A stretch of 64,000 bases of DNA from Dokdonia sp. PRO95 (GTDB lineage Bacteria; Bacteroidota; Bacteroidia; Flavobacteriales; Flavobacteriaceae), in assembly GCF_000355805.1 (NCBI RefSeq), contig NZ_CM001837.1, positions 941,408 through 1,005,407 of the forward strand. The letters are read 5' to 3'. A program made the translations under genes and the position numbers. The notes under the pieces were generated by a model that was not told where the DNA came from, searched no databases, and worked only from the letters and a program-made list of their open reading frames with translations. The stretch's first letter is position 1. Each line of letters begins with the position of its first letter. Shown one piece after another: positions 1,576-63,291 of this stretch.

Positions 1576-1951
1576 TATGTATCTATTTGATTGATAAAAG
1601 ATATAGAGTATGACGCTAATAATGAAAACATTTAACGCTTTCGCGAAAGCGTACTAAAGACAAACCACCTTAATATTATCATAAATGCAAAATCTCAACT
1701 AGTTAAGGCTCAAATATGCAACAGAACACCTTTTTATAACATCAAAATTATTCATTACTGATAATTAGCGGCTTACAAAAAATTTAAAATCAATCTTAAT
1801 AAATAAAAAAACTCATCAAACATCTCAAACAATCGGTGAAAAGCAGTATTTTTTAGATTAAAAGAATATTATTAGTTAATTAAATACATTTTCTGATGTA
1901 ACAACTGCTCTAGGGGCAATTGCTTAAATTTTAATTCCCAAATCAATATTT
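1576..1951. other. divergent intergenic region acs / sensor kinase
   Basis: This 376-bp AT-rich gap separates two divergent genes and so should hold both promoters. I see no clear TAnnTTTG element on either strand. It contains one full copy of the dispersed palindrome (1635-1652). No ORF or RNA gene is supported here. Confidence 0.6.
1635..1652. repeat. dispersed palindrome copy, intergenic
   Basis: Perfect 18-bp palindrome ACGCTTTCGCGAAAGCGT about 60 bp upstream of the acs start. Confidence 0.95.
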
Positions 1952-4183
1952 ATGACTAGACTAACCATACTACTGCTAGTTGTTTTAAGCACTGTATACT
2001 CTTTTAAATCCTACAGTCAAGAGACAATCTCTCAAGAAGAAATTCTTTTAATTAAAGAAAAGCAATTTACCGTAACAGAGATAGACTCTTTGATGCCCGC
2101 CATACTTACTTTATTTAATGAGTCTAGTTATGAAAAAGTTATTGAGGTTGTACCACACCTTCTAGATAACGCTAAGAGACTCAAAGCTCCTCTTACTACA
2201 TCTCGTTTAAGAAGCATTCTAGGTAATGCATTTATACAAGTAGATGATATCCAGGGCGCCGAAGATCTTTTTAATAATGCCATAGAGGAAAATAAAAAGG
2301 CTAATGACACCTTCAATCTTGCTAGAAATCTTACCAATCTCGGGAATACTTTTTTTGAAGAAGATCCAGACAAAGCCATCACTTATTTTGAAGAGGCACT
2401 TGCTATAAGCCCAGAAATTGAAAATAGTATACTAGTTGACTTTATATCAAATAACAACCTAGCTGAGTTATATGTCATAAAAAAACAGCCCAATGAAGCG
2501 CAATACTACCTAGATCAAGCAAAGGAATTACTAACGAAAGGTGATTTTAATGGAAGGAAAAACAACTTTGAAGGAACCGTCTATCACGTTCAAAGTTCCA
2601 TCTATCTATTACAAAACAGACCTAAAGAGGCGATTGAAGCAATTAATTACTCTATGGAGGTAGCTGGTGATGAACAAGATGACAACTACAAGATTGATAA
2701 TTATAAAAACCTAATGAAGGCCTATGAAAGCTTAGGCAACTACGAGCAAGTAAATAGCATACGTAAAACCTATGATGTACTCGTCGAAAAGAGATACGAA
2801 GCAAACAAGATAAAACAGCAAAAAAATGCTACCTCTCGCTTTAACCTCAATAAATTCAAACAAGAACTACGAGCCTCAAAATTAGAAAATGAGCTCGCAC
2901 TTCAAAAAGCTGGTGAGAACAAATTATTTTTAAAAACTTCACTCGCACTAGCCGCCATACTGCTCTTATTTATCGGGACTTTATTACATGGTAGAAAAAA
3001 ACGAAAAAGACTCCTTGATAATTTAAAATCAAAGAACAAACAATATCTTCAAGCCAAAAAGAAATCTCAAAAACTAGCTAGAAGTAATACTAAATTTCTT
3101 TCTACAGTAAGCCATGAGTTAAGAACTCCGCTTTATGGAATTATAGGGCTTTCTTCTGTGTTTCTTGAAGACCCAGCGCTCAAAAACCATACGGAAGATT
3201 TAAAATCTTTAAAATTCTCTGCAGATTATCTACTGGCGCTTGTAAATGATATATTAAGCTTAAATAAATTTGACTCAAAAGAAGGCGAGCGTATCCAGAA
3301 GACTAACTTTAGACTACATAAATTACTACCTCACATTGTACAAACTCTTGAGTTTATAAATAAGAAAAACAATAACACCACAAAGGTGATTATTGATCCT
3401 AATATTCCAGACACCTTACTGGGCGATAAGACTAAAATCTCTCAAGTCCTCATGAACTTATCGAGCAATGCCAGCAAGTTTACCGAGGATGGCACAATCA
3501 CCATAAAGGCCACACTCCAAGAAAAGAATAAAGATGTAAACACCATACTCTTTAGTATAGCAGACACAGGACAAGGCATTGCCAAAGAAGAACAAGCAAA
3601 AATCTTTACTGAATTTGCTCAAGTAGGAGCTATGTCAAACCATCAAGGTACAGGCTTAGGTCTTCCCATTGTCAAGAAGATTTTGCACATTCTTGGTAGT
3701 AAACTATCCCTAGTAAGCAGGCCAAATAAAGGTTCTACTTTTTCATTTACAATTGATCTAGAAACTGGATCCGACTCCTACCTAGAAGTCCAATCAGATA
3801 TTTCAAGCTATGAACGTCTCAAAGGTAAAAAAGTACTTATTGTGGACGACAATAGCATTAACCAACTAGTAACTAAAAAGGTACTTGAACAATACGGTAT
3901 AAAAAACGAAAGTGCCAGTAATGGACAACAAGCTGTGAGCGCCGTAAAGAATAATGCCTATGATTTCATATTGATGGATATTAACATGCCTATTATGAAT
4001 GGTATTGACGCAAGTATTGTTATAAGAAAGTTTGACAGTATAACTCCTATCATTGCTCTTACAGCCACAAGCTATAAAGAGGGAGATAAAGAACTAACAA
4101 AACACGGCATTAACAATAGCATACTCAAACCCTATAAGACAGAGATTCTTTTAGACATGCTCTTAATGTATAGCTCGACCTAA
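1952..4183 (+). CDS. TPR-containing hybrid sensor histidine kinase
   Basis: Membrane kinase with a built-in receiver, 743 residues. A signal peptide (1-22) is followed by a periplasmic helical region with tetratricopeptide-like repeats (about 50-280), a coiled coil, and one membrane segment (about 326-346). The HisKA H-box reads FLSTVSHELRTPL, with phospho-acceptor H388. The HATPase domain has an N-box (QVLMNLSSNASKF, about 498-510), a G1 box (DTGQGI) and a G2 box (GTGLGLPI). A C-terminal receiver (about 627-740) keeps the acidic pair D632/D633, phospho-acceptor D676 and K726. No DNA-binding output domain is present, so phosphate probably passes to an unlinked partner. It stands alone between two long gaps, and its signal is unknown. 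Confidence 0.9.
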   Translation: MTRLTILLLVVLSTVYSFKSYSQETISQEEILLIKEKQFTVTEIDSLMPAILTLFNESSYEKVIEVVPHLLDNAKRLKAPLTTSRLRSILGNAFIQVDDIQGAEDLFNNAIEENKKANDTFNLARNLTNLGNTFFEEDPDKAITYFEEALAISPEIENSILVDFISNNNLAELYVIKKQPNEAQYYLDQAKELLTKGDFNGRKNNFEGTVYHVQSSIYLLQNRPKEAIEAINYSMEVAGDEQDDNYKIDNYKNLMKAYESLGNYEQVNSIRKTYDVLVEKRYEANKIKQQKNATSRFNLNKFKQELRASKLENELALQKAGENKLFLKTSLALAAILLLFIGTLLHGRKKRKRLLDNLKSKNKQYLQAKKKSQKLARSNTKFLSTVSHELRTPLYGIIGLSSVFLEDPALKNHTEDLKSLKFSADYLLALVNDILSLNKFDSKEGERIQKTNFRLHKLLPHIVQTLEFINKKNNNTTKVIIDPNIPDTLLGDKTKISQVLMNLSSNASKFTEDGTITIKATLQEKNKDVNTILFSIADTGQGIAKEEQAKIFTEFAQVGAMSNHQGTGLGLPIVKKILHILGSKLSLVSRPNKGSTFSFTIDLETGSDSYLEVQSDISSYERLKGKKVLIVDDNSINQLVTKKVLEQYGIKNESASNGQQAVSAVKNNAYDFILMDINMPIMNGIDASIVIRKFDSITPIIALTATSYKEGDKELTKHGINNSILKPYKTEILLDMLLMYSST

Positions 4184-4268: not shown

Positions 4269-4282
4269 ACGCTTTCGCGAAA
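4269..4282. repeat. decayed half-copy of dispersed palindrome
   Basis: ACGCTTTCGCGAAA matches the left 14 bases of the 18-bp palindrome; the right arm is lost (followed by ATGG). Confidence 0.8.
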
Positions 4283-5683: not shown

Positions 5684-7135
5684 ATGAAAACTATAAAGAA
5701 AATATTAATTGCAAACCGTGGTGAGATAGCCATTAGGGTAATTCGTACGGCTAAGAAAATGGGTATTAAAACAGTAGCCATTTATTCTACTGTAGACCGT
5801 AATGCACCACACGTGCGCTATGCAGACGAGGCCGTTTGCGTGGGTAATGCGCCTTCATCAGAGTCCTATTTACTAGGAGATAAAATCATAAAAGTTGCTC
5901 AAGAACTTAACGTAGATGCAATCCACCCTGGCTACGGATTTTTAAGTGAGAATTCCGCTTTCGCGAAAGCGGTAACAGAAGCACAAATGATCTTCATAGG
6001 CCCAGAGGCACACGCAATAGAAATCATGGGAAGTAAGCTCGCAGCCAAAGAAGCTGTAAAAGCATATGATATCCCGATGGTACCAGGTATTGATGAAGCC
6101 ATCACAGATGTAGAGAAAGCAAAAGCAATTGCTGCCGAAATAGGATACCCTATTCTCATAAAAGCCTCTGCCGGAGGTGGCGGAAAAGGTATGCGCGTGG
6201 TAGAAAAAGACAGCGAACTAGCATCACAAATGAGTACGGCTATTAGTGAAGCGACTGCAGCCTTTGGCGATGGATCTGTTTTTATAGAAAAATATGTTGC
6301 ATCACCTAGACACATTGAGATTCAAGTAATGGCAGATAATCATGGTAATGTGATTCATCTCTTTGAACGTGAATGTAGCATCCAGCGTCGTCACCAGAAA
6401 GTGGTAGAGGAAGCTCCATCTGTAGTCCTTACTCCGCAACTACGAGAAGAAATGGGGCAAGCTGCAATAAAGGTGGCAAAAGCATGTAACTATCGCGGCG
6501 CAGGTACCGTAGAGTTCTTGCTAGACGATCAACACAATTTCTATTTCTTAGAAATGAATACTCGTTTACAAGTAGAACACCCAGTTACCGAACTTATCTC
6601 AGGTACAGATCTTGTAGAATTACAGATACGCGTTGCTCGAGGTGAGAAGCTATCTATCGCTCAAGAAGACCTCAGCATTAAAGGACATGCACTAGAATTA
6701 CGTGTATATGCAGAGGATCCTCTTAATGACTTCTTACCTAGTGTCGGAAATCTATCTACTTACATACTCCCAGAAGGAGAAGGTATACGTATAGATAATG
6801 GTTTTGAACAAGGCATGGATATTCCTATCTATTATGACCCAATGCTCTCTAAGCTTATTGTCTACGCTCCTACGCGTGAAGAAGCTATAGAGTTACTCTC
6901 TAAAGCCATAGATGATTATAAAATAGAGGGTGCACAAACCACCTTACCTTTTGGAAAATTTGTTTGTGAGCACGAAGCTTTCCGTTCTGGAAATTTTGAC
7001 ACGCATTTTGTAAAAAAATACTATTCACCAGAAGCTTTAAAAGAAGGCTTTAAAGAAGAAGCACGTATTGCTGCTCTTATTGCGCTCAAACAACATATAA
7101 AAGAACAAAATATCTTACGCCTACCAACTGTATAA
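5684..7135 (+). CDS. biotin carboxylase subunit of acyl-CoA (probably propionyl-CoA) carboxylase
   Basis: ATP-grasp enzyme that carboxylates biotin on the carrier protein, using bicarbonate and ATP. It has 483 residues. The N-terminal domain has NRGEIAIRVIR and HPGYGFLSEN, the glycine-rich ATP loop is SAGGGGKGM (about 162-170), and the catalytic segments are ERECSIQRRHQK (228-239) and EMNTRLQVEHP (290-300). The C-terminal biotin-carboxylase domain is complete and no biotinyl domain is fused. A full dispersed palindrome lies inside the gene and encodes SAFAKA at 91-96, where the family normally has SEN..FA, so the repeat fits without breaking the fold. It is the middle gene of the operon. Confidence 0.94.
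   Translation: MKTIKKILIANRGEIAIRVIRTAKKMGIKTVAIYSTVDRNAPHVRYADEAVCVGNAPSSESYLLGDKIIKVAQELNVDAIHPGYGFLSENSAFAKAVTEAQMIFIGPEAHAIEIMGSKLAAKEAVKAYDIPMVPGIDEAITDVEKAKAIAAEIGYPILIKASAGGGGKGMRVVEKDSELASQMSTAISEATAAFGDGSVFIEKYVASPRHIEIQVMADNHGNVIHLFERECSIQRRHQKVVEEAPSVVLTPQLREEMGQAAIKVAKACNYRGAGTVEFLLDDQHNFYFLEMNTRLQVEHPVTELISGTDLVELQIRVARGEKLSIAQEDLSIKGHALELRVYAEDPLNDFLPSVGNLSTYILPEGEGIRIDNGFEQGMDIPIYYDPMLSKLIVYAPTREEAIELLSKAIDDYKIEGAQTTLPFGKFVCEHEAFRSGNFDTHFVKKYYSPEALKEGFKEEARIAALIALKQHIKEQNILRLPTV
5955..5972. repeat. dispersed palindrome copy inside biotin carboxylase gene
   Basis: CCGCTTTCGCGAAAGCGG: perfect core with a compensating change at both ends, so still fully palindromic. Read in the AFAKA frame. 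Confidence 0.95.
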
Positions 7136-8772: not shown

Positions 8773-10863
8773 ATGGTTGCGACACAAGAACTACACTCCC
8801 TTTTAAAAACTCACTTTGGTTATGATGGCTTTAGACCTAACCAGCAAGAGATTATTGAGTCCATTTGTAATGGGCAAGATGCACTAGTCATAATGCCTAC
8901 AGGTGGTGGTAAATCTATGTGTTTTCAACTGCCAGCTCTGGCGCTTGACGGGGTTGCCCTCGTGATCTCACCGCTTATTGCATTAATGAAAGATCAGGTA
9001 GATGCTTTGCGAGCAAATGGTATTAAAGCAGCCTATTATAACAGTACACAACCACCAGAAGAGACGCAAAAGGTACTGTTAGACCTACAGCACAATGCGC
9101 TAGATCTTATTTATGTGGCTCCAGAAAGTTTACAACTATTAGACCCCGTGCTTTCTACAATAAAGATATCACTCATTGCCATAGATGAGGCGCACTGTAT
9201 CTCATCTTGGGGACACGATTTTAGACCCGCTTACACACAACTAGGCTACTTAAAAAGACGTTACCCAGAAACCCCACTTGTAGCACTCACGGCAACTGCA
9301 GATAGATCTACGCAAGATGACATTGCACAACAACTTAGTATCCCACAAGCAAAAAAATACATCTCCTCTTTTGACAGACCTAACCTCTATCTGGACGTGC
9401 GACCAGGTCAAAAAAGAAACGAGCAAATTCTTGACTTTCTAGAAGATCACCCTTTTGAGAGTGGTATCATTTACTGTCTATCAAGAAAAAGCACAGAAAA
9501 TCTCGCGGCCAAACTTAAGAGCAACGGGCACAACGCTGCCGCCTACCACGCAGGTATGAGTGCAGAGCAACGCTCAAAAGTGCAAGAAGATTTTATAAAC
9601 GACACCACACCTATAATTTGTGCCACTATTGCCTTTGGGATGGGTATTGACAAGAGTAACGTGCGCTGGGTGATACACTATAATATGCCTAAAAATCTTG
9701 AAGGATATTATCAAGAAATAGGTAGAGCAGGCCGTGATGGCTTACCCTCACACACCGTGCTTTTTTACAGCTATGCAGACACGATGCAGCTACGCCAGTT
9801 TATAGATGGAGCAAAAAATGCCGACTACCAGATGGCTAAGCTTGACCGTATGCAGCAATATGCAGAGGCCCTAAGCTGTAGGCGTAAGGTTCTTATAAAT
9901 TACTTTGGCGAGTTTTTATCGCAAGACTGTGGCAACTGTGACATTTGTAAAAATGCACCCGCATATTTTGACGGCACCGTACTTACTCAAAAAGTACTTT
10001 CCGGGGTGGCACGTATGCAACAAAAGGAAGCAATGGGTACCGTGATAGACGTTTTACGAGGTTCTCAAAACGCCCAAGTGTATGACAAAGGGTATCAGAA
10101 TATAAAAACTTACGGCGCTGCAAAAGATGTCTCCTGGCGAGATCTTCAGCAGTATGTGATACAAATGATTAATCAAGGGTTGTTAGAAATACGCTTTCGC
10201 GAAAGCGGAAGACTTCTCCTCACACCGCTTTCTAAAGAAGTTTTATACGACGGTAAAAAGATCCAACTCGCAAAACCTAGTAAGGAGAAAGCCAAACCGA
10301 TTACTAAAGAACGTAAGCCTAAAAAACCAAAAGGTTCTCTTTTTGAAAAACTACGAGAGCTAAGAGCCGAACTAGCTAGAGAGGCAAATGTTGCGGCTTA
10401 TATTGTATTCTCAGATGCGTCTCTTAAAGCTATGGAAGACCAAGAGCCTGTGACTCAAAAACAGTTTTTAGACATACAAGGTGTAGGGCAAGCCAAAATG
10501 GAAAAATATGGCGCCGACTTTTTAAAACTCATCAAAGAGCACCTCAAAAAACCAAAACCTAAAAGCGGTAGCAAAACGTATCTTGAGACTAAAAACCTCA
10601 TCCAGCAAGGCCTCTCACTTGAAGAAATTGCAGAGGCTCGCAAGCTCACCATAGGCTCTGTGTACAATCACCTCATAAAGCTGCACGAAGAGGGTATGGA
10701 GATAGATTTTTACCAGTTTATACAGCCCGCAGAGGTCAAGCAAGTACACGACGCTATCTTAAAAGTGGCAGATCCAGATAAGCTTAAATCTTTTTATGAA
10801 TACTTCAAGGAGGAGATGCCGTACTGGAAAATAAGGCTTGCGCTATTCTTAAAAGGTAGGTAG
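8773..10863 (+). CDS. recQ: ATP-dependent DNA helicase RecQ
   Basis: 3'-5' helicase of recombination and replication repair. It has 696 residues. Walker A MPTGGGKS (about 41-48), DEAH box D138-H141 within AIDEAHCISSWGHDFRP, helicase motifs SSFDRPNL and YYQEIGRAGRDG, then RQC zinc cysteines (CRRKVLINYFGE...CGNCDIC, about 370-395). An HRDC domain (about 520-590) and a C-terminal helix-turn-helix-like tail (SLEEIAEARKLTIGSVYNHL, about 615-634) follow. A dispersed palindrome encodes RFRES around residue 475, in the winged-helix to HRDC linker region. It is the first of two close genes. Confidence 0.95.
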   Translation: MVATQELHSLLKTHFGYDGFRPNQQEIIESICNGQDALVIMPTGGGKSMCFQLPALALDGVALVISPLIALMKDQVDALRANGIKAAYYNSTQPPEETQKVLLDLQHNALDLIYVAPESLQLLDPVLSTIKISLIAIDEAHCISSWGHDFRPAYTQLGYLKRRYPETPLVALTATADRSTQDDIAQQLSIPQAKKYISSFDRPNLYLDVRPGQKRNEQILDFLEDHPFESGIIYCLSRKSTENLAAKLKSNGHNAAAYHAGMSAEQRSKVQEDFINDTTPIICATIAFGMGIDKSNVRWVIHYNMPKNLEGYYQEIGRAGRDGLPSHTVLFYSYADTMQLRQFIDGAKNADYQMAKLDRMQQYAEALSCRRKVLINYFGEFLSQDCGNCDICKNAPAYFDGTVLTQKVLSGVARMQQKEAMGTVIDVLRGSQNAQVYDKGYQNIKTYGAAKDVSWRDLQQYVIQMINQGLLEIRFRESGRLLLTPLSKEVLYDGKKIQLAKPSKEKAKPITKERKPKKPKGSLFEKLRELRAELAREANVAAYIVFSDASLKAMEDQEPVTQKQFLDIQGVGQAKMEKYGADFLKLIKEHLKKPKPKSGSKTYLETKNLIQQGLSLEEIAEARKLTIGSVYNHLIKLHEEGMEIDFYQFIQPAEVKQVHDAILKVADPDKLKSFYEYFKEEMPYWKIRLALFLKGR
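10191..10208. repeat. dispersed palindrome copy inside recQ
   Basis: ACGCTTTCGCGAAAGCGG; perfect core, one outer base differs. Read in the RFRES frame. Confidence 0.95.
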
Positions 10864-10890: not shown

Positions 10891-12333
10891 ATGAAAGAAT
10901 TTACGCTTTCGCGAAAAATAGGTTTTATTACAGGCCCGTTACTTTGCATTCTCATACTAGCATTACCTTTTGATATTATCAACCCAGCGATAGATAAAGT
11001 GGTTGCCATTGCCGTATGGATGATTATCTGGTGGATTACAGAAGCTGTTTCTATTTCTGTAACCGCGTTAATCCCGTTAGCACTATTTCCACTACTTGGT
11101 ATAGGTACTATAAAAGAAGTTGCAAGCAACTATGCAAACCCTATTGTGTATCTGTTTTTTGGAGGATTTGTCATCGCGCTAGCACTAGAAAAAGTACAAC
11201 TGCACAAGCGTATTGCGTTATCTATTCTCAAAATCACAGGCACTAAAGCAAATGGTATTATCTTAGGTTTTATGATTGCCACTGGCCTTATGAGTATGTG
11301 GATTTCAAACACGGCAAGTACGGTCGTGATGCTGCCCATAGCTGTATCTGTCATTCAACTTCTCATAGATGACGAAGATGGATTTACAAAAAACGACCGC
11401 AACTTTGCGCTTAGTATTATGCTAGGCATCGCCTTTGGCGCAAATATAGGTGGGATGGCGACCTTGATAGGCACACCACCTAACTCTGTAATGCTTGCCT
11501 TTTTAAATGAAAGTTATAATGTAGATATAGGCTTTTTTCAATGGATGAAAATGGGTGTTCCCTTTTCTATCTTATTGATGACTATTACCTACTTTATGAT
11601 TACCCGCGTCTTTTATCGCAACGGCTTAGGCACGATAGGGAAGTCTGCAAATATTATACAAACCGAACTTGACAAACTAGGTCCTATCTCAATGGGTGAG
11701 AAAGTGGTTTTAGCAATATTCCTCATTACAGCAATCTCGTGGATTTTGCGCTCGTATTTAAACAACCTGCTACCAGATATTACCCTTACAGACACGACCA
11801 TTTCTGTCATTGCCGCACTACTTATGTTTATAGTACCTATTGATTACAAGAAAGGTTCTTTTCCGCTCAATTGGGAAGATACTTCGCGATTACCTTGGGG
11901 GATTCTCATTCTCTTTGGCGGCGGTCTCGCACTTGCTTCTGGACTAGCACAATCTGGTTTTATAGATATGATAGGTTCCTACATATCACAGCAGGAAGAC
12001 TGGAGTATGTGGGTGGTGACTGCCGTTCTTATTTTCTTAATGCTCTTTATGACCGAGTTAATGAGTAATGTAGCCCTCGTGACCATACTCGTACCTCTTG
12101 TGGTAGGTATTGCCATCGGGATGGATGTGCCTATGCTACAGATGGTCATTCCCGTAACCCTTGCTTCTAGTTGTGCTTTTATGCTCCCTATGGCTACACC
12201 GCCTAATGCGATTGTATTTGCTAGTGGTCACGTACGCGTAGACCAGATGGCGCGTGTGGGTGTGGTTTTAAATCTCATCTCTGTAGGGTTGCTATTTGCA
12301 CTGGCGTATTATGTAATACCGGTATTGTTTTAA
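10891..12333 (+). CDS. SLC13/DASS family sodium-coupled anion or dicarboxylate transporter
   Basis: Inner-membrane symporter of 480 residues with about 11-13 hydrophobic segments. DASS signatures: an SNT-type motif in the first half (MSMWISNTASTVVMLPI) and its counterpart in the second half (MTELMSNVALVTILVPL), plus the IGTPPNSV and MATPPNAIVF hairpins. The second-half motif reads SNV rather than SNT. Substrate is probably a C4-dicarboxylate or similar anion; sulfate cannot be excluded. It starts 27 bp after recQ, so it may be co-transcribed. Its N-terminus (FTLSRK) is encoded by a partial dispersed palindrome. Confidence 0.9.
   Translation: MKEFTLSRKIGFITGPLLCILILALPFDIINPAIDKVVAIAVWMIIWWITEAVSISVTALIPLALFPLLGIGTIKEVASNYANPIVYLFFGGFVIALALEKVQLHKRIALSILKITGTKANGIILGFMIATGLMSMWISNTASTVVMLPIAVSVIQLLIDDEDGFTKNDRNFALSIMLGIAFGANIGGMATLIGTPPNSVMLAFLNESYNVDIGFFQWMKMGVPFSILLMTITYFMITRVFYRNGLGTIGKSANIIQTELDKLGPISMGEKVVLAIFLITAISWILRSYLNNLLPDITLTDTTISVIAALLMFIVPIDYKKGSFPLNWEDTSRLPWGILILFGGGLALASGLAQSGFIDMIGSYISQQEDWSMWVVTAVLIFLMLFMTELMSNVALVTILVPLVVGIAIGMDVPMLQMVIPVTLASSCAFMLPMATPPNAIVFASGHVRVDQMARVGVVLNLISVGLLFALAYYVIPVLF
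10903..10916. repeat. decayed half-copy of dispersed palindrome in transporter start
   Basis: ACGCTTTCGCGAAA followed by AATA; the left 14 bases are intact. Encodes TLSRK at residues 5-9. Confidence 0.8.
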
Positions 12334-12337
12334 AGTT

Positions 12338-12355
12338 ACGCTTTCGCGAAAGCGT
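12338..12355. repeat. dispersed palindrome copy between convergent genes
   Basis: Perfect 18-bp palindrome filling most of the 29-bp gap between two convergent stops, where a terminator would be expected. No T-run, so it is not a standard terminator. Confidence 0.95.
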
Positions 12356-13574: not shown

Positions 13575-13592
13575 ACGCTTTCGCGAAAGCGT
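13575..13592. repeat. dispersed palindrome copy, intergenic
   Basis: Perfect 18-bp palindrome 11 bp beyond the stop of the YfiR-domain kinase gene. Confidence 0.95.
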
Positions 13593-21203: not shown

Positions 21204-21310
21204 AACGTAAAAATATGAAATAGTCTTAAGCAAGTAAATGGCTATTACTAAGTTTTTAAAAAAATGTAGCCAGTACTGGTATAATTTTATGTGTTAAAAG
21301 TTCTTTTGGT

Positions 21311-21328
21311 ACGCTTTCGCGAAAGCGT
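21311..21328. repeat. dispersed palindrome copy, intergenic
   Basis: Perfect 18-bp palindrome 9 bp beyond the stop of the ketoacyl synthase, in the gap before bioB. Confidence 0.95.
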
Positions 21329-21337
21329 AATACTACC

Positions 21338-22492: not shown

Positions 22493-22520
22493 AGTATAAG
22501 TTTGTTTAAAATTGGATTTA

Positions 22521-22528
22521 CAAAAGTA
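22521..22528 (-). promoter_or_regulatory. -7 element for ketoacyl synthase-bioB
   Basis: TACTTTTG on the minus strand, 28 bp before the TTG start at 22492. It matches TAnnTTTG and helps decide that start. A half-palindrome occupies the -20 region. Confidence 0.5.
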
Positions 22529-22531: not shown

Positions 22532-22545
22532 TTTCGCGAAAGCGT
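22532..22545. repeat. decayed half-copy of dispersed palindrome
   Basis: TTTCGCGAAAGCGT: right arm intact, left arm lost (preceded by ACAA). Upstream of the ketoacyl synthase -7 element. Confidence 0.8.
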
Positions 22546-24399: not shown

Positions 24400-25032
24400 C
24401 TAGAGACTTATTACGCTTTCGCGAAAGCGCTCTGCATACTCTGCAATAACATTTTCATCAAAGTAAGGCTCTTCATCAATACGACCTATTACGCTTGCGC
24501 CACTCATTTTTTTAATAATAGCCTCTGTGGTAGGATGCTCATCTCCAGAAAATATAATACCACCTATCTCAAGATTACGTGCCTTGAGTAATTCAATAGT
24601 CATCAGTGTGTGATTAATACTCCCTAGGTAATGACGCGATACTACAATCACTTTATCTGTTGGCCTTATTACATCTGCAATGGTTTCGGTTTCATTTATA
24701 GGGACTAGTAAGCCGCCTGCACCCTCAATTACAAGTGAATTTGTAGTTTCTGGTCTTTTGATTTTATCTACGGTAACGGCTACATTATCTATAGCAGCAG
24801 CCGCGTGTGGACTCATAGGTGTCTGTAAAGCAAAACTGTTATCGTGATATTGCGATATTTCATTTTTAACTAATCGCTTGACTTTGTGAGTATCACTATT
24901 ATCAAGATCTCCTGCCTGTACTGGCTTCCAGTAATCTGCCTGTAAGGCCTCTGTAACAATGGCTGCAGCAACTGTCTTCCCCACATCTGTAGAAATCCCT
25001 GTAATGAAATATGTAGCTTGTTTATCTTTCAT
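24400..25032 (-). CDS. bioD: dethiobiotin synthetase
   Basis: Closes the ureido ring of dethiobiotin from DAPA, CO2 and ATP. It has 210 residues. P-loop GISTDVGKTVAAAI near the N-terminus, YWKPVQAGD, and the second nucleotide and substrate segment EGAGGLLVPINE; VVSRHYLGSINHT follows. Its last codons come from a full dispersed palindrome (ERFRESVISL), so the extreme C-terminus is repeat-derived. Middle gene of bioF-bioD-bioA; 54 bp after bioF. Confidence 0.95.
   Translation of the reverse strand: MKDKQATYFITGISTDVGKTVAAAIVTEALQADYWKPVQAGDLDNSDTHKVKRLVKNEISQYHDNSFALQTPMSPHAAAAIDNVAVTVDKIKRPETTNSLVIEGAGGLLVPINETETIADVIRPTDKVIVVSRHYLGSINHTLMTIELLKARNLEIGGIIFSGDEHPTTEAIIKKMSGASVIGRIDEEPYFDENVIAEYAERFRESVISL
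24413..24430. repeat. dispersed palindrome copy at the 3' end of bioD
   Basis: ACGCTTTCGCGAAAGCGC, perfect core; encodes RFRES near the BioD C-terminus on the minus strand. Confidence 0.95.
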
Positions 25033-25086: not shown

Positions 25087-26271
25087 CTATAATTGGCTTT
25101 TTATTAATTCTAGAAGTTCAGTAACTTCATCTTTACTGTTATATGCGTGCAAACAAATACGCAGGCGCTCTTGACCTTGAGGCACTGTGGGCGATAAAAT
25201 AGGCTTGACGTTAAAGTTGTTTTCTTTTAGCTTTCGCGAAAGCGTCTTTACCGCATCATTACCACGTATCACACCACAATGTATGGCAGAGTCACTATCT
25301 ATAAAGAGCTTACCTAGAGCTAGTCTTTGTACTTCGGCCTTAAAATGATTTATAAGCTTGCGCAAGTTCACAACCTCTGGCGCATCCTCATTTGTAGGTT
25401 CTAACAATTGCTCATAAGCACTTAATATAATCGCAAGTGAATGTGGAGGCAGCCCAGTAGTATAAATAAAAGACCGTGCAAAATTTACCAGATAGCTCCT
25501 CAAAGCCTCACTACCTAAAATCGCGGCTCCGTGCGCACCCATCCCTTTACCAAAGGTTATAATGCGTGCAAAAACTTTATCTTCTAGATGGAGTTCTTGT
25601 ACGAGTCCGGCGCCTTGAGGCCCCAGCACAGCGGTTGCGTGTGCTTCATCTATAATGAGGTGTATGCCATTTTTCATACAGATGTCTGCAATAGCAAGAA
25701 GGTCTGGCGTATCACCATCCATAGAAAAAACAGACTCGGTCACAAGGTATAGTTCGATGGCACCTTCTTGATCATCTAGGTGATGCATCTCTCGCAACCT
25801 AGAGACCAGCTTTTTTATACTGGCGATATCGTTATGCTTAAACTTATAGCCTCTAGCTGGGCTCATCTGTATACCATCTCGTATACTAGCGTGTATATAC
25901 TCATCGTAGAGTATAAGATCTCCGCGCTGTGGCACACTCTGAAAGAAGCCCACGTTTGCATCATACCCGCTATTAAAAACAAGTGCGCTCTCAGCTTTAT
26001 GAAAATCTGCTAGCATCTCCTCCGTGCGAGCATATAGCTTGTGATTACCAGACAGCAATCTGCTCCCTGTGGCTCCATTTGCACTAAGCTGCTCTTCTTG
26101 CAATATAGCCTGAGCGCGTGCTGTAATTTTCTGGGCGATGCTACTATTACTAGAAAACCCTAAATAATCGTTTGACGAGAAGTCAACGAGATTTGCTGGA
26201 GGCGTGAGCACTCGTAGTGCTTGCGTAGCTTTTCGAGCATCTAGTTTTTTCTGTAATTTTTTTGGTAACAT
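25087..26271 (-). CDS. bioF: 8-amino-7-oxononanoate synthase
   Basis: PLP alpha-oxoamine synthase that joins alanine with a pimeloyl thioester, the first committed biotin step. It has 394 residues from MLPKKLQKKL. Motifs: SSNDYLGFS, GATGSRLLSGN, NSGYDANVGFF, IIDEAHATAVLGPQG, PLP lysine in TFGKGMGAHGAA, and TTGLPPHS. A longer start at 26292 would lie upstream of the -7-like element at 26276, so ATG 26271 is chosen. A dispersed palindrome encodes TLSRK in the small C-terminal domain (AVKTLSRKLKEN). Probably the first gene of the bioFDA transcript. Confidence 0.94.
   Translation of the reverse strand: MLPKKLQKKLDARKATQALRVLTPPANLVDFSSNDYLGFSSNSSIAQKITARAQAILQEEQLSANGATGSRLLSGNHKLYARTEEMLADFHKAESALVFNSGYDANVGFFQSVPQRGDLILYDEYIHASIRDGIQMSPARGYKFKHNDIASIKKLVSRLREMHHLDDQEGAIELYLVTESVFSMDGDTPDLLAIADICMKNGIHLIIDEAHATAVLGPQGAGLVQELHLEDKVFARIITFGKGMGAHGAAILGSEALRSYLVNFARSFIYTTGLPPHSLAIILSAYEQLLEPTNEDAPEVVNLRKLINHFKAEVQRLALGKLFIDSDSAIHCGVIRGNDAVKTLSRKLKENNFNVKPILSPTVPQGQERLRICLHAYNSKDEVTELLELIKSQL
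25228..25245. repeat. dispersed palindrome copy inside bioF
   Basis: TAGCTTTCGCGAAAGCGT; perfect 14-bp core, left outer bases changed. Encodes TLSRK. Confidence 0.92.
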
Positions 26272-29830: not shown

Positions 29831-29848
29831 ACGCTTTCGCGAAAGCGT
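29831..29848. repeat. dispersed palindrome copy between atpD and atpC
   Basis: Perfect 18-bp palindrome inside an otherwise tight two-gene operon, 13 bp after the atpD stop. Confidence 0.95.
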
Positions 29849-31502: not shown

Positions 31503-31520
31503 ACGCTTTCGCGAAAGCGC
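31503..31520. repeat. dispersed palindrome copy, intergenic
   Basis: ACGCTTTCGCGAAAGCGC, perfect core, between the glmS terminator and the atpD promoter. Confidence 0.95.
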
Positions 31521-41202: not shown

Positions 41203-41376
41203 ATGCTTAAAAAGATTCTATACGCCTTATTACTTCTTGCCATCGTAAGTTGTAATCAAATTCAAAAAGTCACAGACGCCATCACGCAACCTACGGCTCG
41301 CGAAGTTTACGCTCGTGGTTTTGAGAAAGATGATAGTATTTACAACTCTTGGAATTACGCTTTCGCGAAAGCGTGA
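41203..41376 (+). CDS. short lipoprotein ending inside a palindrome, probably truncated
   Basis: 57 residues. Signal peptide with lipobox ALLLLAIVSC followed by NQIQKVTDAITQPTAREVYARGFEKDD. The last residues, NYAFAKA, are encoded by a full dispersed palindrome and the stop follows within one codon. The remainder looks like the start of a longer exported protein whose body is missing, so this may be a relic. ATG 41203 is chosen because an in-frame TTG nine bases upstream adds only MAA. Confidence 0.6.
   Translation: MLKKILYALLLLAIVSCNQIQKVTDAITQPTAREVYARGFEKDDSIYNSWNYAFAKA
41357..41374. repeat. dispersed palindrome copy at the end of a short lipoprotein gene
   Basis: Perfect 18-bp palindrome giving AFAKA and leading straight into the TGA stop. 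Confidence 0.95.
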
Positions 41377-44764: not shown

Positions 44765-44805
44765 AGTCATTGTAATATTTACCTCAGCCTAGAGTTTTAC
44801 TATTG

Positions 44806-47800
44806 ATGCGCGTATTTTACACAGTTCTTTTATTATTATGCACCAGTGCTGTTCTAGCACAACAGACGCGTACCAAAAGAATTGCAGTAAGAGACTCAAT
44901 ACTTTTAGACTCTGTAAGTATTAATCCATCCTTATTTAGAATTACTACGCTACAAGGCACAAGTATAGACAGTACAGCTTATAGTGTTGATTATGGAAAA
45001 AGTATCCTTACGCTTAGCGCGAAAAATGGAGCACTTCCAGATTCTCTCATTGTAACTTACAACGTTTATCCAGATTTTCTCACGCGTGCTTACTCACAGT
45101 ATGACTCTAGCCAAATTGTGACGAGTACTGGGAGCCTTAATAAGGTAATAAGCCTAGGTGAGGACAGGAGAACAAATACTGTCACTCCATTTTCTGGCCT
45201 TAACGTGAGCGGAAGTATACTGAGAGGAGTCGCTTTAGGTAATAGCCAGAACAGCACTTTAAACTCAGAGCTAGACTTACAAATAAGCGGAAAGCTAAGT
45301 GAGCGCGTTACCTTACGCGCTTCTATACAAGATGCAAATATACCCAGCCAGCAAGGCGGATACTCTCAAAACCTGGATGAGTTTGACCAAGTGTTTATCG
45401 AGCTATTTTCTGACAATTGGAATATAAGAGCTGGTGATATCAATCTAGAAAACAAGGACACCTACTTCGGCAGATTTACAAAAAAAATCCAAGGCTTATC
45501 CCTAGGTGGCACCTTGAATCACTCAGATGATAAACAAACAGACTTACATGCTTCTGGAGCTTTAGTGCGAGGTGTTTTTACACAAAGTACATTTATAGGG
45601 CAAGAAGGAAATCAAGGCCCTTATAAACTTACGGGACCTAATGGTGAGCTATTTGTACTCGTAGTCTCAGGAAGTGAGACCGTTTATGTAAATGGCATCC
45701 CGCTTACACGTGGAGAAAATGAAGATTACATTATCGATTATAATGCTGGGGAGATTCGATTTAATGCCACCTACCCCATCACTAGTGAGATGCGTATTAA
45801 TGTTGCTTATCAATTTTCTGAGCGACGTTACACGCGCTTTCTGGCGTATGGAGGAGGAAGCTTTCGCGAAAGCGATAAACTCAAAATATCTGCTCACGTA
45901 TACTCAGAAAGTGATGCTAAGAACCAACCACTACAACAAAATCTCACCTCCGAACAGGTTTCTATTTTACAAGAAGCTGGTGATGATATGCAAGAAATGA
46001 TTGCTCCTAGCGCAATCACAGACACCTTTGATGAAAATAAGATTCTCTACAGACAGATTATTGTAAATGGAGTCGAGGTTTTTGAATTTAGCGCTAATCC
46101 TGAAGAAGAACTATTTCAAGTACGTTTTACTAATGTAGGAGAAAACCAAGGAGACTACATTTTAAGCACAACAAATACTTTACAGCGTACTTTTGAATAT
46201 GTTGCCCCTATAAATGGTATTTCGCAAGGTTCTTTTGCTCCTCAAGTACAACTTTTTGCTCCTACGGTCTTACAATTAGGCGTAGTAAATGGAAGCTACA
46301 CACCTTCAGAAAAAACTACAATAAACTTTGAAGCTGCAGGAAGTAATAATGACACAAATACATTCTCTACGCTAGATGATGACGACAATAATGGTTATGC
46401 TGCACATGTAGACGTAAATCAGCTGCTTTATAAAAAGGATAGTTTATCTAGCTTTCGTGCTTTTGGAAGTTGGGATTTTATACAAGAAGATTTTAGAAGT
46501 ATTGAAGGGCTTTACAATATAGAATTTAACCGAGATTGGAATGTCGAGAACTCACTAGCACAAGCTGGAGGAACCTTATTAGGAACTCAACATTTTACTA
46601 CGGTAGGACTCAATTATGCTCATGCAAAACAGGGTGCAATTACCTATCAATTTCAACATCTAAATTTTCAAGATGCTTATAATGGTTACAGACACAGCTT
46701 AAATGCCTACTGGGAACTTGGCAATTTGAGGACTGCGATTAATGCAAGTACGCTTAGTACAGATGATGTACAACTCAATACAGACTTTACACGAGCAGAC
46801 GTAAATGCAATTTATGGTTTCAAAAAATCATGGATAGGCGCTTCATTTAATATGGAGGACAACGTTAGAATCACAAAGAGGAATGACTCTATAACGGCAA
46901 ATAGTCAGCGATTTAGTGCTTACAAAGCTTTTGCCGGTGTGGGAGACAGCACAAACGTCTATATGGAAGCTGGATATAAATATCGTATAAATGATAGTGT
47001 GCGACTCAATCGTATAACACGAGTAAATACATCTAACACCTATTACTTAAAATCTCAATTGATAAAAAATGAGAAAACAAACATCTCACTCTTTCTAAAT
47101 TATCGTAATCTTAGTTATGAAGATCAACAAGAAGATGAAAACTCGCTCAACTCAAGACTACTTTATAATCAGCGATTTGCAAATGATATCATCCGACTTA
47201 ACACTGTTTTTGAAACTAATAGCGGCACCCAACCTCAGCAAGAATTTACTTTTATTCAAGTAGACGAAGGTCAAGGAACCCATACATGGAATGATTACAA
47301 CGGAGATGGCATACAAGAGCTAGATGAATTTGAGATAGCTCAGTTTCAAGATGAAGCAGATTATGTGAGAATACTACTCCCAAACCAAGTATTTGTAAGA
47401 ACTCACCAAAACAGATTAAGCCAGCAACTCACACTACAGCCTGGGCAGTGGTCAGGACTCAAGGGAATAAAAAAGTTTCTTTCCCACTTTTACAATCAGT
47501 CTAGCTATATCTTAGATAAAAGAGTATTGCGCACTGATAACAATTTTAGCCTGAACCCATTTAATGAGGATGACGATGAAATAGGCGCTACGGTCAACTT
47601 TAGAAATACGTTATTTTTTAATAGAGGAAAGCAGCGTTATACTACCTCCTATTCATTTCTGTCAAATACATCTAAAATTCTTCTCTCTACAGGATTACAG
47701 GAAAGTGTAGTACAAAGTCATCAACTCAACTTTCTACACAAAGTAAAAGAGAGCTGGCTCTTTAATGCCAGAGGAGAACTAGGCTCTACCGAAAGTAGCG

Positions 47801-53309: not shown

Positions 53310-53327
53310 ACGCTTTCGCGAAAGCGT
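53310..53327. repeat. dispersed palindrome copy, intergenic
   Basis: Perfect 18-bp palindrome about 50 bp upstream of glyS. Confidence 0.95.
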
Positions 53328-57582: not shown

Positions 57583-59493
57583 ATGCAAAACACAATTGCT
57601 CAAAGAATCTATGATTTTTTAAAACAGTTTCCGCCATTTCAATTTATGGCAGAGAGTGATTTGCTAGATATTTGCAGCCAGGCTTCTGTACTTTACATAG
57701 ATAAGGAGGAGGTTATTTTTAAACGTGATCAAGCCTACAGTGATCGTTTCTATATCGTTCAGCAAGGGGCTATAAAGCTTACGAGACCCTCCAAGGATGT
57801 AATTAAGGTGGTAGACATTTGTGATGAAGGCGATCTTTTTGGCCTCAAAGTTACCTCGACAGACTCTTACAGAACGACTGCTACGGCAAAGGAAGAGACA
57901 ATACTCTATACGTTACCCATGGAGGAATTTTCCGCTTTCGCGAAAGCGAACAAAGCCATTTCAAACTACCTCATCGCTAGTTTTGCATCAAACATTAAAG
58001 ATCCTTATACCTTACAGCAAAGCGGCTCATTACTGAATACCTATGAGCCGGAACGAAGTGCCCATTTATTGGGCCTAGAACAAGCACGATATAGCACCTC
58101 CATCATCACTTGCTCTCCAGAAACTTCCATACAAGAAGCAGCAAGATTAATGCAACAACATCGCATAGGATGTTTAGTTATTACGACAGATTCAATACCA
58201 GTAGGTGTTCTCACAAATCGAGAATTGCGTAATGCTATTGCAAATAATATCATCTCTAGTGATCACGTAGTAGGTGATGCAATGATTACTCAGGTCGTCT
58301 GCGCCGTTCCAAAAATAACCGTAGCTCAGGCGCAACTTATACTGCTTAAGAATGGAATAAGCCACCTCATAATTACCGAAGATGGTACAGCTAGCACGAA
58401 AGTAGTAGGCGTGCTAAGCAAGCATGACATCGTGGTCGCTTACGGTAACAGCCCCGCCGAACTCGTTAAAGAAATAAAAAGAGCAAAAAAGACTAAAATG
58501 CTGCGTTTTACTTGGGAAAAAGCAACCCTTCTTCTTGAGCGCTATCTAGATCAAAACTTACCTATATCACATATTCTTAATATTTTTTCTGAGCTTAGAG
58601 ACGCTCTCATGCAACGTACCATGGAGCTCTCATTAAGCAAGATGGCACATAATCCTCCAGTACCATTTACCTGGCTTGCATTAGGTAGTCAAGGACGAGA
58701 GGAGCAATTACTATATACAGACCAAGATAACGCTCTTATTTATGAGGATGTGTCTCCAGAAAACAATGAAGCGACTAAAAATTACTTTCTACATCTTGCA
58801 AATAGGATGAACAAACGCCTGCATAAAATAGGTTATGATTACTGCCCAGCAGATATGATGGGAAGTAATCCGCTGTACTGCTTATCACTTTCTGAGTGGA
58901 AAGTACAGTTTTCTACATGGATTAAAGATCCGTCTCCAGAAAGCATGTTGATGTCAGGCATATTTTTTGACTACAGACTCGTATATGGGACCCAGGAACT
59001 AGTTGCGCAACTCACTACTTCTATCTATGACCAACTATCAACCTCTTCTGTGTTTTTTAGATTTATGGCAAAGGATGCCCTTAAGAATCCGCCGCCGGTG
59101 AGTTTCTTTCGAAACTTTCTAGTGGAGTCAGATGGTGCGCATAAAGATGAATTTGACATAAAAAATCGTGCTATGGCTCCCTTAATAAGCGGCGCCAGAG
59201 TGCTTTCACTTTACCATAATTTACGTAACATAAATCACACCTCAGAACGTTTTGAAAAACTTGCAGAACTCGAACCTCAGAACAAAGAACTCTTTGAGAG
59301 TTGCGCTTACGCATTTAAAGCGCTTCTTAAATTTAGAGTCAGGCAAGGGCTACGCAATGATGATAGCGGCCGCTTCATTAAACTAGCGGATTTATCAAAA
59401 GAGGAACGCCTAAAACTAAAACGATGCTTTAAACCACTACGCGATTTACAAGAAGTGCTACGTGTACGTTTTCAAACTCAAAATTTGAGCTAG
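57583..59493 (+). CDS. cNMP-binding, CBS-pair, DUF294 nucleotidyltransferase-like protein
   Basis: 636-residue multidomain protein: cyclic-nucleotide-binding domain (about 18-135), two CBS domains (about 155-285; HRIGCLVITTDSIPVGVLTNRELR and HLIITEDG...GVLSKHDIV), DUF294 nucleotidyltransferase domain (about 330-470; LGSQGREEQLLYTDQDNAL, with the GSxxR..Q...D.D pattern) and DUF294 C-terminal domain. Such proteins are nucleotide sensors often encoded next to a DnaQ-like exonuclease, as here. A full palindrome encodes SAFAKA near residue 118. It ends TAG directly before the next ATG. Confidence 0.92.
   Translation: MQNTIAQRIYDFLKQFPPFQFMAESDLLDICSQASVLYIDKEEVIFKRDQAYSDRFYIVQQGAIKLTRPSKDVIKVVDICDEGDLFGLKVTSTDSYRTTATAKEETILYTLPMEEFSAFAKANKAISNYLIASFASNIKDPYTLQQSGSLLNTYEPERSAHLLGLEQARYSTSIITCSPETSIQEAARLMQQHRIGCLVITTDSIPVGVLTNRELRNAIANNIISSDHVVGDAMITQVVCAVPKITVAQAQLILLKNGISHLIITEDGTASTKVVGVLSKHDIVVAYGNSPAELVKEIKRAKKTKMLRFTWEKATLLLERYLDQNLPISHILNIFSELRDALMQRTMELSLSKMAHNPPVPFTWLALGSQGREEQLLYTDQDNALIYEDVSPENNEATKNYFLHLANRMNKRLHKIGYDYCPADMMGSNPLYCLSLSEWKVQFSTWIKDPSPESMLMSGIFFDYRLVYGTQELVAQLTTSIYDQLSTSSVFFRFMAKDALKNPPPVSFFRNFLVESDGAHKDEFDIKNRAMAPLISGARVLSLYHNLRNINHTSERFEKLAELEPQNKELFESCAYAFKALLKFRVRQGLRNDDSGRFIKLADLSKEERLKLKRCFKPLRDLQEVLRVRFQTQNLS
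57932..57949. repeat. dispersed palindrome copy inside DUF294 gene
   Basis: CCGCTTTCGCGAAAGCGA; perfect core, encodes AFAKA. Confidence 0.94.
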
Positions 59494-60903: not shown

Positions 60904-60917
60904 TTTCGCGAAAGCGA
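60904..60917. repeat. decayed half-copy of dispersed palindrome
   Basis: TTTCGCGAAAGCGA in the gap between the convergent HAD and ankyrin genes; left arm lost. Confidence 0.8.
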
Positions 60918-62152: not shown

Positions 62153-63291
62153 ATGCTTGTTAAAATTTCGGCAGCTTTTTTGAGTGTCTCGTCATCTTTG
62201 GCGACACAAAATCTCAGCATTTTATAATCTTCTTGATTCACATTAAATACCGACGTTGGTATAGACGCTAGTTTATGGGTTGTGGTTAACGCTTTCGCGA
62301 AAGCGGTGTCACTCTCACTAGTAATTGCAGAATAATCCAGCATTTGAAAGTAGGTACCTGCGGCAGGCTTTGCTGTAAAACGTGAGCCTTGAATCAGGTT
62401 TAGAAACAAATCTCTTTTCTGCTGATAAAAATCGTTCAATTCTAAATAATGACTAGGGTCCTTGAGGTACTGGGCAAAGGCTTTTTGAGAAGGATGATGC
62501 ACTGAAAACACATTAAATTGATGTACTTTTTGAAACTCTTCCATCAACTCTTTTGGAGCAACTGTATATCCCATTTTCCACCCTGTATTATGAAAAGTCT
62601 TCCCAAAGGATGCCGTAATAAAACTGCGTTCTCTTAATGCTGGGTAACGAGCCACACTCTCATGACGCTTGCCATCAAAGACTATATGCTCATACACCTC
62701 ATCACTTAGTAATATGATATCTGTACCTTCAAGAATACGCTCTAGCTCCAGCATATCTTCTTTATGAAGAATAGTTCCCGTAGGATTGTGCGGGGTATTA
62801 ATAAATAGCATTTTAGTCTTAGACGTTATCGCATCTTCTACCGCGTTCCAATTCACTTTATAATCTGGCGCTTTAAGTTGAATAGGGACTACTTTACCAC
62901 CATTTACAGTCACCGCAGGCTCATAGCAGTCATAAGCAGGTTTCAATATAATCACCTCATCATCTGGACGTATAAATGCAGATACGATTGTGTAAATAGC
63001 TTGGGTTGCTCCAGCAGTTACTGTAACCTCAGCTTCTGGATGATAATCACTTCCATATAGGGTGTTGAGTTTTTGAGTAATTTCTTCACGCAAGCTGTAA
63101 ATACCTTGCATAGGAGCGTACTGATTGTACCCATCACTCATTGCCTTTGTAACAAGCTGTTGCAGTTTTGGATCACTATCAAAGCCTGGAAATCCTTGCG
63201 CGAGATTAATGGCTTGATGTTCATGTGCCATCTTACTCATCACCGTAAAAATGGTAGTACTAACGTCAGGAAGTTTTGAATGAAAATGCAT
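62149..63291 (-). CDS. PLP aminotransferase (YbdL/methionine aminotransferase-like)
   Basis: 380 residues, fold-type I class I/II. Motifs: INLAQGFPGFDSDP, YAPMQGIYSLREEI, AGATQAIYTIVSAFIRP, NTPHNPTGTIL, DEVYEHIVFDG, and the PLP lysine in SFGKTFHNTGWKMGY. The QGFPGF opening is typical of YbdL, which transaminates methionine and kynurenine-like amino acids. It could pair with the omega-amidase-like nitrilase (56736). A full palindrome encodes TAFAKAL near residue 330. Confidence 0.92.
   Translation of the reverse strand: MHFHSKLPDVSTTIFTVMSKMAHEHQAINLAQGFPGFDSDPKLQQLVTKAMSDGYNQYAPMQGIYSLREEITQKLNTLYGSDYHPEAEVTVTAGATQAIYTIVSAFIRPDDEVIILKPAYDCYEPAVTVNGGKVVPIQLKAPDYKVNWNAVEDAITSKTKMLFINTPHNPTGTILHKEDMLELERILEGTDIILLSDEVYEHIVFDGKRHESVARYPALRERSFITASFGKTFHNTGWKMGYTVAPKELMEEFQKVHQFNVFSVHHPSQKAFAQYLKDPSHYLELNDFYQQKRDLFLNLIQGSRFTAKPAAGTYFQMLDYSAITSESDTAFAKALTTTHKLASIPTSVFNVNQEDYKMLRFCVAKDDETLKKAAEILTSI
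62289..62306. repeat. dispersed palindrome copy inside aminotransferase gene
   Basis: ACGCTTTCGCGAAAGCGG; perfect core, encodes AFAKA on the minus strand. Confidence 0.95.

Follow-up and report, generated by a model that had tools for sequence, protein, structure and literature searches.

A palindromic word built on the 10-bp core TTTCGCGAAA is repeated hundreds of times around the chromosome of Dokdonia sp. PRO95, and we tentatively propose it as a candidate DNA-uptake-type self-recognition word that may be kept by transformation-linked drive. The window, the 64,000-nt stretch of PRO95 DNA analysed here, contains 17 exact copies of the 14-mer, in which the core carries GC on both sides, against none in 100 shuffles. 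All 17 positions listed in the original prediction proved exact. Because the whole chromosome (3.305 Mb) holds 794 exact 14-mers and none of the reversed-pattern control, with copies beyond the window, the prediction of an iterated palindrome stands.

Placed against the ORFs, the 14-mers at 1637..1650, 13577..13590, 21313..21326, 29833..29846 and 31505..31518 are intergenic, as is that at 53312..53325, upstream of an aminoacyl-tRNA synthetase gene (51724-53259, minus strand). Those at 12340..12353 and 41359..41372 lie between convergent ORFs. Others fall within genes, namely biotin carboxylase (5957..5970 in 5684-7135, plus), recQ (10193..10206 in 8773-10863, plus), two aminotransferase genes (25230..25243 in 25087-26292, minus; 62291..62304 in 62149-63291, minus), an M61 peptidase gene (27689..27702 in 26294-28129, plus), the 3' part of a pantoate-beta-alanine ligase gene (36972..36985 in 36217-37065, plus), a long ORF with no Pfam match (45860..45873 in 44803-48231, plus) and a CBS/DUF294 gene (57934..57947 in 57583-59493, plus). 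The copy at 24415..24428 lies at the 3' end of an AAA_26 gene (24400-25032, minus). The 10-bp core itself occurs 21 times in the window, and the four occurrences beyond the 14-mers have no GC on one side: 4273..4282 and 10907..10916 carry it on the left only, 60904..60913 and 22532..22541 on the right only. In two relatives the core at 22532..22541 reads TTTCGCGTAA. Searches of the window against Rfam, at the gathering threshold, and for tRNAs gave no match.

The word was characterized in a PRO95 sample of 464 kb, comprising 21 stretches around the chromosome with 143 cores and 48 kb of non-coding DNA. Every core (143/143) carries GC on at least one side, and one-sided sites, with GC at one flank only, are tolerated (38/143). 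Most copies had been said to extend to 18 bp (ACGC...GCGT); the outer AC...GT pair is present on both ends in 9 of the 17 window copies (1637, 12340, 13577, 21313, 27689, 29833, 36972, 41359 and 53312), a majority, though a bare one. The context around the core is symmetric over about 50 bp, with 5' flanks that are C-poor and G/T-rich, the G/T-rich flank spanning about 20 bp on each strand. G exceeds C in both flanks at 92 of 142 sites, in one flank at 44 and in neither at 6. One-mismatch forms of the word are about threefold above background (25 vs 8.6), and two-mismatch forms are at background level (160 vs 173). The core is strict and its surroundings are tolerant of variation, and the repeated word is both larger and more sharply defined than first described.

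The copies exclude one another over about 1 kb, and their spacing is more even than random. Gaps of less than 300, 600 and 1000 bp between cores numbered 3, 6 and 13 in the sample, compared with 22.0, 32.0 and 43.7 expected under a null with matched coding and non-coding placement, and none of 1000 simulations was as low as observed. The spacing result rests on this matched null; an earlier gap test on the first 100 consecutive 14-mers, which ignored gene layout, gave a CV of 0.67 and 2 gaps under 1 kb against 20.6 expected. The direction is the same in genomes G242 and G190, where an unmatched null predicts 9.5 and 8.0 gaps under 1 kb and 1 and 2 are observed. Copies are single and not tandem, as originally described; one pair of cores in the 464 kb is separated by 27 bp. 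Of 249 non-coding spacers, 80 contain a single core and none contains two.

Mean density in the sample is one core per about 3.2 kb, and all 21 stretches hold 3 to 8 cores per 20 kb, with no evident gradient around the chromosome. This occurrence everywhere sampled does not fit a parS- or matS-type site, which would be present in few copies and at the origin or terminus only. Cores that are not wholly genic number 82 of 143, in 48 kb of non-coding DNA out of 464 kb, a non-coding preference of about 12-fold; the other 61 lie inside called genes and use all three frames (31, 18 and 12). An uptake word would be expected to be missing from recently acquired DNA; among six long gaps in the 14-mer, four still contain cores and two do not. 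Ten ORFs from the two core-free gaps, compared with Pfam, included fn3-domain, MACPF/ankyrin and curli-type genes, and long genes alone could explain these gaps.

Copies stay intact between species while their surroundings diverge. Among alignable cores, with unalignable ones outside the count, PRO95 retains 44 of 44 (53 in the stretches) from three relatives with 82-88% identity, compared with 31-37% of random 10-mers, and 13 of 20 (38 in the stretches) from two relatives at 73-74% identity, compared with about 8%. The recQ copy, which encodes RFRES, is intact in all 8 other Dokdonia genomes compared and absent from all 41 orthologues from elsewhere, with gaps in none. Here a usually conserved RecQ residue has been given up for one site among hundreds, which implies a strong drive per site. 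Seven sites were not kept between species, of which 5 align gap-free and 2 with gaps of 1-3 bases. Sites arise and vanish by substitution, not by insertion.

All 18 genomes of the genus that were searched are rich in the palindrome, and 16 congeners carry 421-1049 twelve-mers per strand (control at most 2). Across the family, 5 of 299 genomes, belonging to 3 genera, hold hundreds of copies. In a tree of a RecQ paralogue (one gene, 28 rows, with row g11 on a long branch), the 9 word-rich rows need 2 changes and form one group in 0% of 200 bootstrap trees; the well-supported branches still allow one origin. In a scan of viral contigs, 41 stretches carried the 16-mer.

Low-copy genomes show clustered copies with a repeated 933-bp spacing. 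This spacing prompted us to consider a centromere-like (parS) cluster, which we rejected, as all 38 copies in 20 stretches from 12 such genomes lie within ORFs of at least 80 aa; in four genomes the 933-bp pair sits within a single 405-aa efflux ORF. Ten of the proteins encoded by these copy-bearing ORFs were compared with Pfam and nine matched, as RND efflux pumps, an outer-membrane efflux protein, P-type ATPases, a Fur-type regulator, a CusB-type fusion protein, a rhodanese/beta-lactamase-fold protein and a DUF4138 protein. The copy-bearing genes look like mobile genes from word-rich donors, and the word may mark DNA, such as these efflux-type genes, that left word-rich genera for genera otherwise without it.

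As expected of DUS and USS, the palindrome is conserved in place, in permissive positions, and is greatly over-represented genome-wide. To our knowledge, no DNA-uptake-type word has been described earlier in Bacteroidota. The TTTCGCGAAAGC half would be read on either strand, whether by a competence receptor that is dimeric or two-headed or by a protein that acts immediately after uptake. Fragments with one site would enter or recombine best, so that alleles with the site would replace alleles without it, and a second site on the same fragment would add nothing, which could account for the exclusion zone. More speculatively, the same complex might read or bend the G/T-rich 5' flank of each strand, or this flank might be a preferred RecA substrate after single-stranding.

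Parallels are found among described uptake words. In the H. influenzae USS, a perfect inner core is needed yet not sufficient (PMC7811141), and neisserial DUS are reported to combine spacing tied to conversion fragments with permissive core-genome sites and high conservation (PMC2397512). Significant even spacing is cited for uptake words in PMC1939737, yet described there as less even than compaction sites should be. Within Bacteroidota, transformation is documented in Riemerella; R. columbina, of the same family as Dokdonia, transforms and prefers its own DNA, with no uptake word settled (PMC7965970). Several observations speak against an uptake word: known uptake words are not palindromes, the excess of one-mismatch forms is only about threefold, and the exclusion zone also suits a structural site. 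A ComEC domain was found in 10 of 10 genomes searched and does not discriminate, because it is equally present in four word-poor ones (G287, G087, G101 and G100); no receptor gene tracking the word was found. Literature searches returned no uptake or competence report for Dokdonia (a co-mention with 'natural transformation' is, judged by its listing, on another topic), nothing on Dokdonia palindromes by title, no occurrence of the 14-mer, and 10-mer occurrences that are unrelated by title. A term search of the PRO95 genome paper gave no hit for palindrome, competence, uptake sequence, methyltransferase or natural transformation. If the palindrome is an uptake word, it would provide a testable self-recognition signal for Bacteroidota, and its symmetry would make that of the receptor a question.

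The main rival, which we regard as rather unlikely, is a dimeric chromosome-organising or nucleoid protein that would occupy roughly a thousand evenly distributed sites and use them to anchor loops or domains, with selection holding the sites apart and in permissive DNA. The protein-site part of the original prediction survives in this form, given that the dyad is perfect and lies between skewed flanks (both at 92/142, one at 44, neither at 6), that copies exclude one another over about 1 kb and that the 21 stretches each show 3 to 8 cores per 20 kb with no evident gradient. It is weakened by site turnover (7 of 20 alignable sites lost at 73-74% identity), by tolerated one-sided sites (38/143) and by the RecQ residue yielded to one site among hundreds; we also know of no chromosome-organising protein of this kind in Flavobacteriaceae. 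A structural site would point to an undescribed chromosome organiser acting at roughly a thousand regularly spaced sites. A bidirectional Chi-like recombination hot-spot word, at which a nuclease would recognise either side and a G/T-rich 3' overhang would be loaded with RecA, is improbable. Its density would be close to that of known Chi words, its copies are dispersed and conserved, and the roughly 20-bp G/T-rich 5' flank per strand matches the would-be retained 3' overhang, but Chi words are short and asymmetric, and neither a dyad of 14-18 bp nor 1-kb exclusion is predicted. One-sided sites showed no clear strand preference relative to GC skew (14 and 12 by orientation where the skew is negative, 5 and 7 where it is positive), the skew being weak and the numbers small.

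We give little credence to a HIP1-like palindrome that owes its origin or upkeep to an orphan DNA methyltransferase with linked repair. The word is GC-centred and genome-wide, and HIP1 extensions also remain palindromic (PMC4390886); comparable flanks are not mentioned for HIP1 in sections 2.4 and 2.6 of that paper. In the 15 genomes searched, out of 21 known to be word-rich, over-cut-off matches comprised PF02086 in 9, PF00145 in 6 and PF01555 in 2, while word-rich G301 and G303 (both one contig) and G242 had none to these three families. None of the three is common to word-rich genomes, and the suggested methylation target is weakened to that extent. A role as an RNA hairpin that terminates or stabilises transcripts at gene ends is very unlikely: although 5 of 5 folded copies form about 7-9 pairs and the stop-to-core distance is at most 24 bp in 23 of 77 listed distances, 61 of 143 cores lie within called genes, TTTT lies no more than 12 nt 3' of the palindrome on 21 of 286 sides, compared with 363 of 4200 in the random set, and 1 of 7 copies in 21000-40000 is terminator-like. 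The flanks do not lengthen the stem beyond composition, and an extended hairpin was rejected, complementarity more than 5 bp from the core being near or below permuted values. The palindrome does not have the make-up of an intrinsic terminator, a hairpin and then a T run. A mobile or proliferating element of REP or RPE type is scarcely credible despite the high copy number, the palindromy and the placement within and between genes. None of the 41 recQ orthologues lacking the palindrome shows a gap, the 7 sites not kept are gap-free (5) or have gaps of 1-3 bases (2), and two-mismatch forms are at background (160 vs 173); the copies do not behave as insertions. The original description holds for a highly iterated, single-copy, genome-wide palindrome, and its proliferating or REP-type readings are unsupported: relatives differ by substitution, with no element-sized insertion. 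The exclusion zone, the G/T-rich flanks and the parallel with uptake sequences go beyond that description.

An extension of the uptake-word proposal, possible though doubtful, is a two-sided palindromic self-recognition word with a dyad and G/T-rich arms, whose receptor would be unlike pilus-based ones and of which family dialects on TTTC...GAA half-sites may exist. Among 159 genomes, TTTCAGAAA and TTTCCGAAG are several-fold above reversed controls in G063, G012, G076, G101, G039 and G054. Counts on both strands for TTTCCGAAG were 1048 vs 115 in G063, 921 vs 91 in G012, 817 vs 58 in G076, 529 vs 70 in G101 and 13 vs 56 in PRO95; those for TTTCAGAAA, which also stands out in G101 as ATTTCCGAAG does in G287, were 1135 vs 139 in G063, 987 vs 115 in G039, 933 vs 96 in G054 and 158 vs 109 in PRO95. 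Against dialects, the words are degenerate; in three genomes, 8 of 9 comparisons put close gaps at or above expectation, and these genomes lack the 20-bp C-poor flank around the words. We keep these words only as a lead. In a survey of 80 named loci around recQ relatives, own-genus records left out, 74 are at least 8 kb; among these, one (L100) holds a palindromic 10-mer at least 4 times (CTGAATTCAG, 5 times), and the 10-bp core occurs once, in L098, and is absent from 73.

The Dokdonia word resembles several known systems in part. Like REP/BIME and Rickettsia palindromic elements, it consists of dispersed palindromes, also within genes, but it has no insertion signature and no cloud of degenerate copies. 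It shares with Chi its dispersal, its conservation and G/T-richness on the prospective 3'-overhang strand, and differs in being symmetric, longer and mutually exclusive. HIP1 (GCGATCGC, cyanobacteria) is likewise a genome-wide GC-centred palindrome with palindromic extension, whereas the Dokdonia word has a longer core, strong non-coding bias, flanks and even spacing, and none of the three methylase families searched is common to its genomes. With the DUS of Neisseria and the USS of Pasteurellaceae it shares hundreds to thousands of copies, an inner core that is strict and surroundings that tolerate change, placement in permissive DNA, strong conservation and even spacing, the evenness of uptake words being disputed (PMC1939737). 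Unlike them, it is a perfect palindrome with symmetric G/T-to-A/C flanks, occurs in Bacteroidota, and is sparser, with a core about every 3.2 kb in the PRO95 sample versus about 1-1.5 kb (PMC2397512, PMC7811141).

All 17 copies of the 14-bp palindrome that the original prediction located in the window were exact, and 100 shuffles yielded none. Across the one-contig, 3,305,093-bp PRO95 genome, in which the window spans bases 941408-1005407, we counted 794 copies, with none of the reversed pattern. At least one copy was present in 61 of 299 Flavobacteriaceae genomes; 56 of these hold 1-19 copies, and the other five hold hundreds, namely PRO95, a second Dokdonia genome (G206, 857), two genomes of genus g11 (G010, 578; G242, 664) and one of a third genus, g191 (G190, 408). 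The twelve-mer TTTCGCGAAAGC occurs 421-1049 times per strand in 16 further congeners, with a control at no more than 2, so that all 18 searched genomes of the genus are rich in the word.

To define the unit, we used a 464-kb PRO95 sample comprising the window and 20 further 20-kb stretches. It holds 143 copies of the core, TTTCGCGAAA, against 17 of the runner-up palindromic 10-mer. One-mismatch forms numbered 25 (8.6 expected) and two-mismatch forms 160 (173 expected). GC adjoins the core on both sides at 105 of the 143 sites and on one side at 38, with none lacking it; the corresponding counts are 43, 3 and 0 in G242 and 30, 11 and 1 in G190. In PRO95, the 5' flank 4-16 bp from the core, both strands pooled, contains 7-8% C, 18-25% G and 41-48% T. 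This skew weakens past 20 bp and has disappeared at a distance of 200 bp; a separate tally over a different span gave a smaller skew. It is alike at genic sites, with 9% C and 26% G, and at the remaining sites, with 8% C and 22% G, and G exceeds C in both flanks at 92 of 142 sites, in one at 44 and in neither at 6. G242 shares both core and flanks with PRO95, while G190 (46% GC) has the same core and weaker flanks.

A simple greedy ORF rule gave 391 genes in the sample. Of the cores, 61 are wholly genic and 82 are not, which, for 416 kb of coding and 48 kb of non-coding DNA, is an approximately 12-fold non-coding enrichment. Genic cores use all three frames, read as AFAKA (31), LSRK (18) or FRES (12). 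Over the first 100 consecutive 14-mers, the spacing has a CV of 0.67, with 2 gaps below 1 kb against 20.6 expected. Because gene layout alone could give such spacing, we scattered equal numbers of cores randomly over coding and non-coding bases in 1000 runs. Gaps below 300, 600 and 1000 bp numbered 3, 6 and 13, against 22.0, 32.0 and 43.7 in this matched null, and no run was as low. Among 249 non-coding spacers of at least 20 bp, 80 hold one core and none holds two. Against nulls unmatched for gene layout, gaps below 1 kb were likewise few in G242 (1 against 9.5) and G190 (2 against 8.0). The closest pair in the PRO95 sample lies 27 bp apart (L025:2872-2908). Large ORFs with fn3 domains, and a MACPF/ankyrin ORF adjoining curli-type genes, lie in two long stretches without inner cores, L246 (G000:C1:249902-264627) and L249 (G000:C1:36951-47583).

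Orthologous stretches of three Dokdonia genomes (G299, G301 and G303) contain 53 cores, of which 44 were alignable at 82-88% mean identity; all 44 are kept in PRO95, compared with 31-37% of random 10-mers. For the relatives G306 and G304, 20 of 38 cores were alignable (73-74% identity) and 13 are kept, compared with about 8% of random 10-mers. Only 1 of 16 cores from G206 was alignable, and it is kept in PRO95. Of the seven cores that are not kept, five align gap-free, and the alignments of the other two contain gaps of 1-3 bases. In recQ, the palindrome is present as RFRESG in all eight other Dokdonia genomes and absent from all 41 non-Dokdonia relatives, including two of the word-rich genus g11. 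All of these alignments are gap-free, and the Dokdonia FR is FH in 36 of the 41, indicating that the site arose by substitution, altering a usually conserved residue.

Low-copy genomes were also surveyed. In 20 stretches from 12 of them, all 38 copies lie inside ORFs, several of efflux type. Four loci from four genomes (L002, L003, L004 and L008) carry the palindrome twice, 933 bp apart, within one 405-aa outer-membrane efflux ORF. Genera otherwise without the word carry more copies in genes for RND, P-type ATPase and Fur-type proteins. Together, the efflux, RND, ATPase and Fur copies look as if genes had spread from word-rich donors. Very similar proteins from two genera (L011:2343-3182 and L018:2441-3280) bear the palindrome at the end of the signal peptide (FAFAKANAQ); the one of the two that was searched matched DUF4138, a conjugative-transposon protein.

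Several explanations were weighed. The sites show no excess of the following T run that, together with a hairpin, defines an intrinsic terminator. A mobile palindrome was rejected on the gap-free recQ relatives and the lost sites with gaps of at most 3 bases, and the REP-type or proliferating element originally proposed was not supported, as sites differ by substitution with no element-sized insertion in the alignments. Nor do the cores cluster as parS-like sites would, with 3-8 per 20 kb in all 21 sampled PRO95 stretches. A HIP1-type methylase target is weakened by the distribution of PF00145, PF01555 and PF02086, each missing from several of the 15 word-rich genomes searched (of 21 known); G301, G303 and G242, all word-rich, have no match above cut-off to any of the three.

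In other genera, two words with a TTTC-N-GAA pattern, TTTCCGAAG and TTTCAGAAA, exceed their reversed controls several-fold in whole-genome counts of G063, G012, G076, G101, G039 and G054, and may be related half-sites. In PRO95, TTTCCGAAG occurs 13 times against 56 for its control and TTTCAGAAA 158 times against 109; in G010, TTTCCGAAG occurs 5 times against 26. TTTCCGAAG thus falls below its control in two word-rich genera, as it does in several word-poor ones. Because both words are degenerate and unevenly spaced in samples of G101, G027 and G287, we treated them as a lead and gave them no weight as evidence. Local repeats of high copy number are present in the G100, G040 and G175 samples (L239-L241, L256-L259, L268-L271), and in G040 and G175 the majority of top words are confined to one stretch.

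The core is strict, its flanks are tolerant, and the sites exclude one another, lie in permissive places and are retained exactly; jointly these traits match uptake words, suggesting that the palindrome may be a DNA-uptake-type word. We place this reading a little short of an even chance, because no receptor for the word was found, because known uptake words are non-palindromic according to passages of PMC1939737, whereas the Dokdonia word is a perfect palindrome, and because a site for an architectural protein would also account for the dyad and the exclusion. Passages of PMC1939737 cite significantly even spacing of uptake words, yet less even than expected of compaction sites. The open-access journal papers searched contained neither the 14-mer nor a title or abstract describing the palindrome.

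The uptake reading can be set beside known transformation systems. Riemerella, which PMC7965970 and PMC8459023 place in Flavobacteriaceae, is transformable according to parts of these papers. A preference of R. columbina for its own DNA is described in PMC7965970, the relevant part of which settles on no uptake word, and sections of PMC8459023 list ComEC, DprA, ComF, RecA and four further proteins, whose role is unknown, as required for R. anatipestifer transformation. In passages of PMC2397512, the neisserial DUS is conserved yet sited in permissive places of the core genome, with a spacing that tracks conversion-fragment length; H. influenzae uptake, in part of PMC7811141, requires a perfect inner core that is insufficient by itself.
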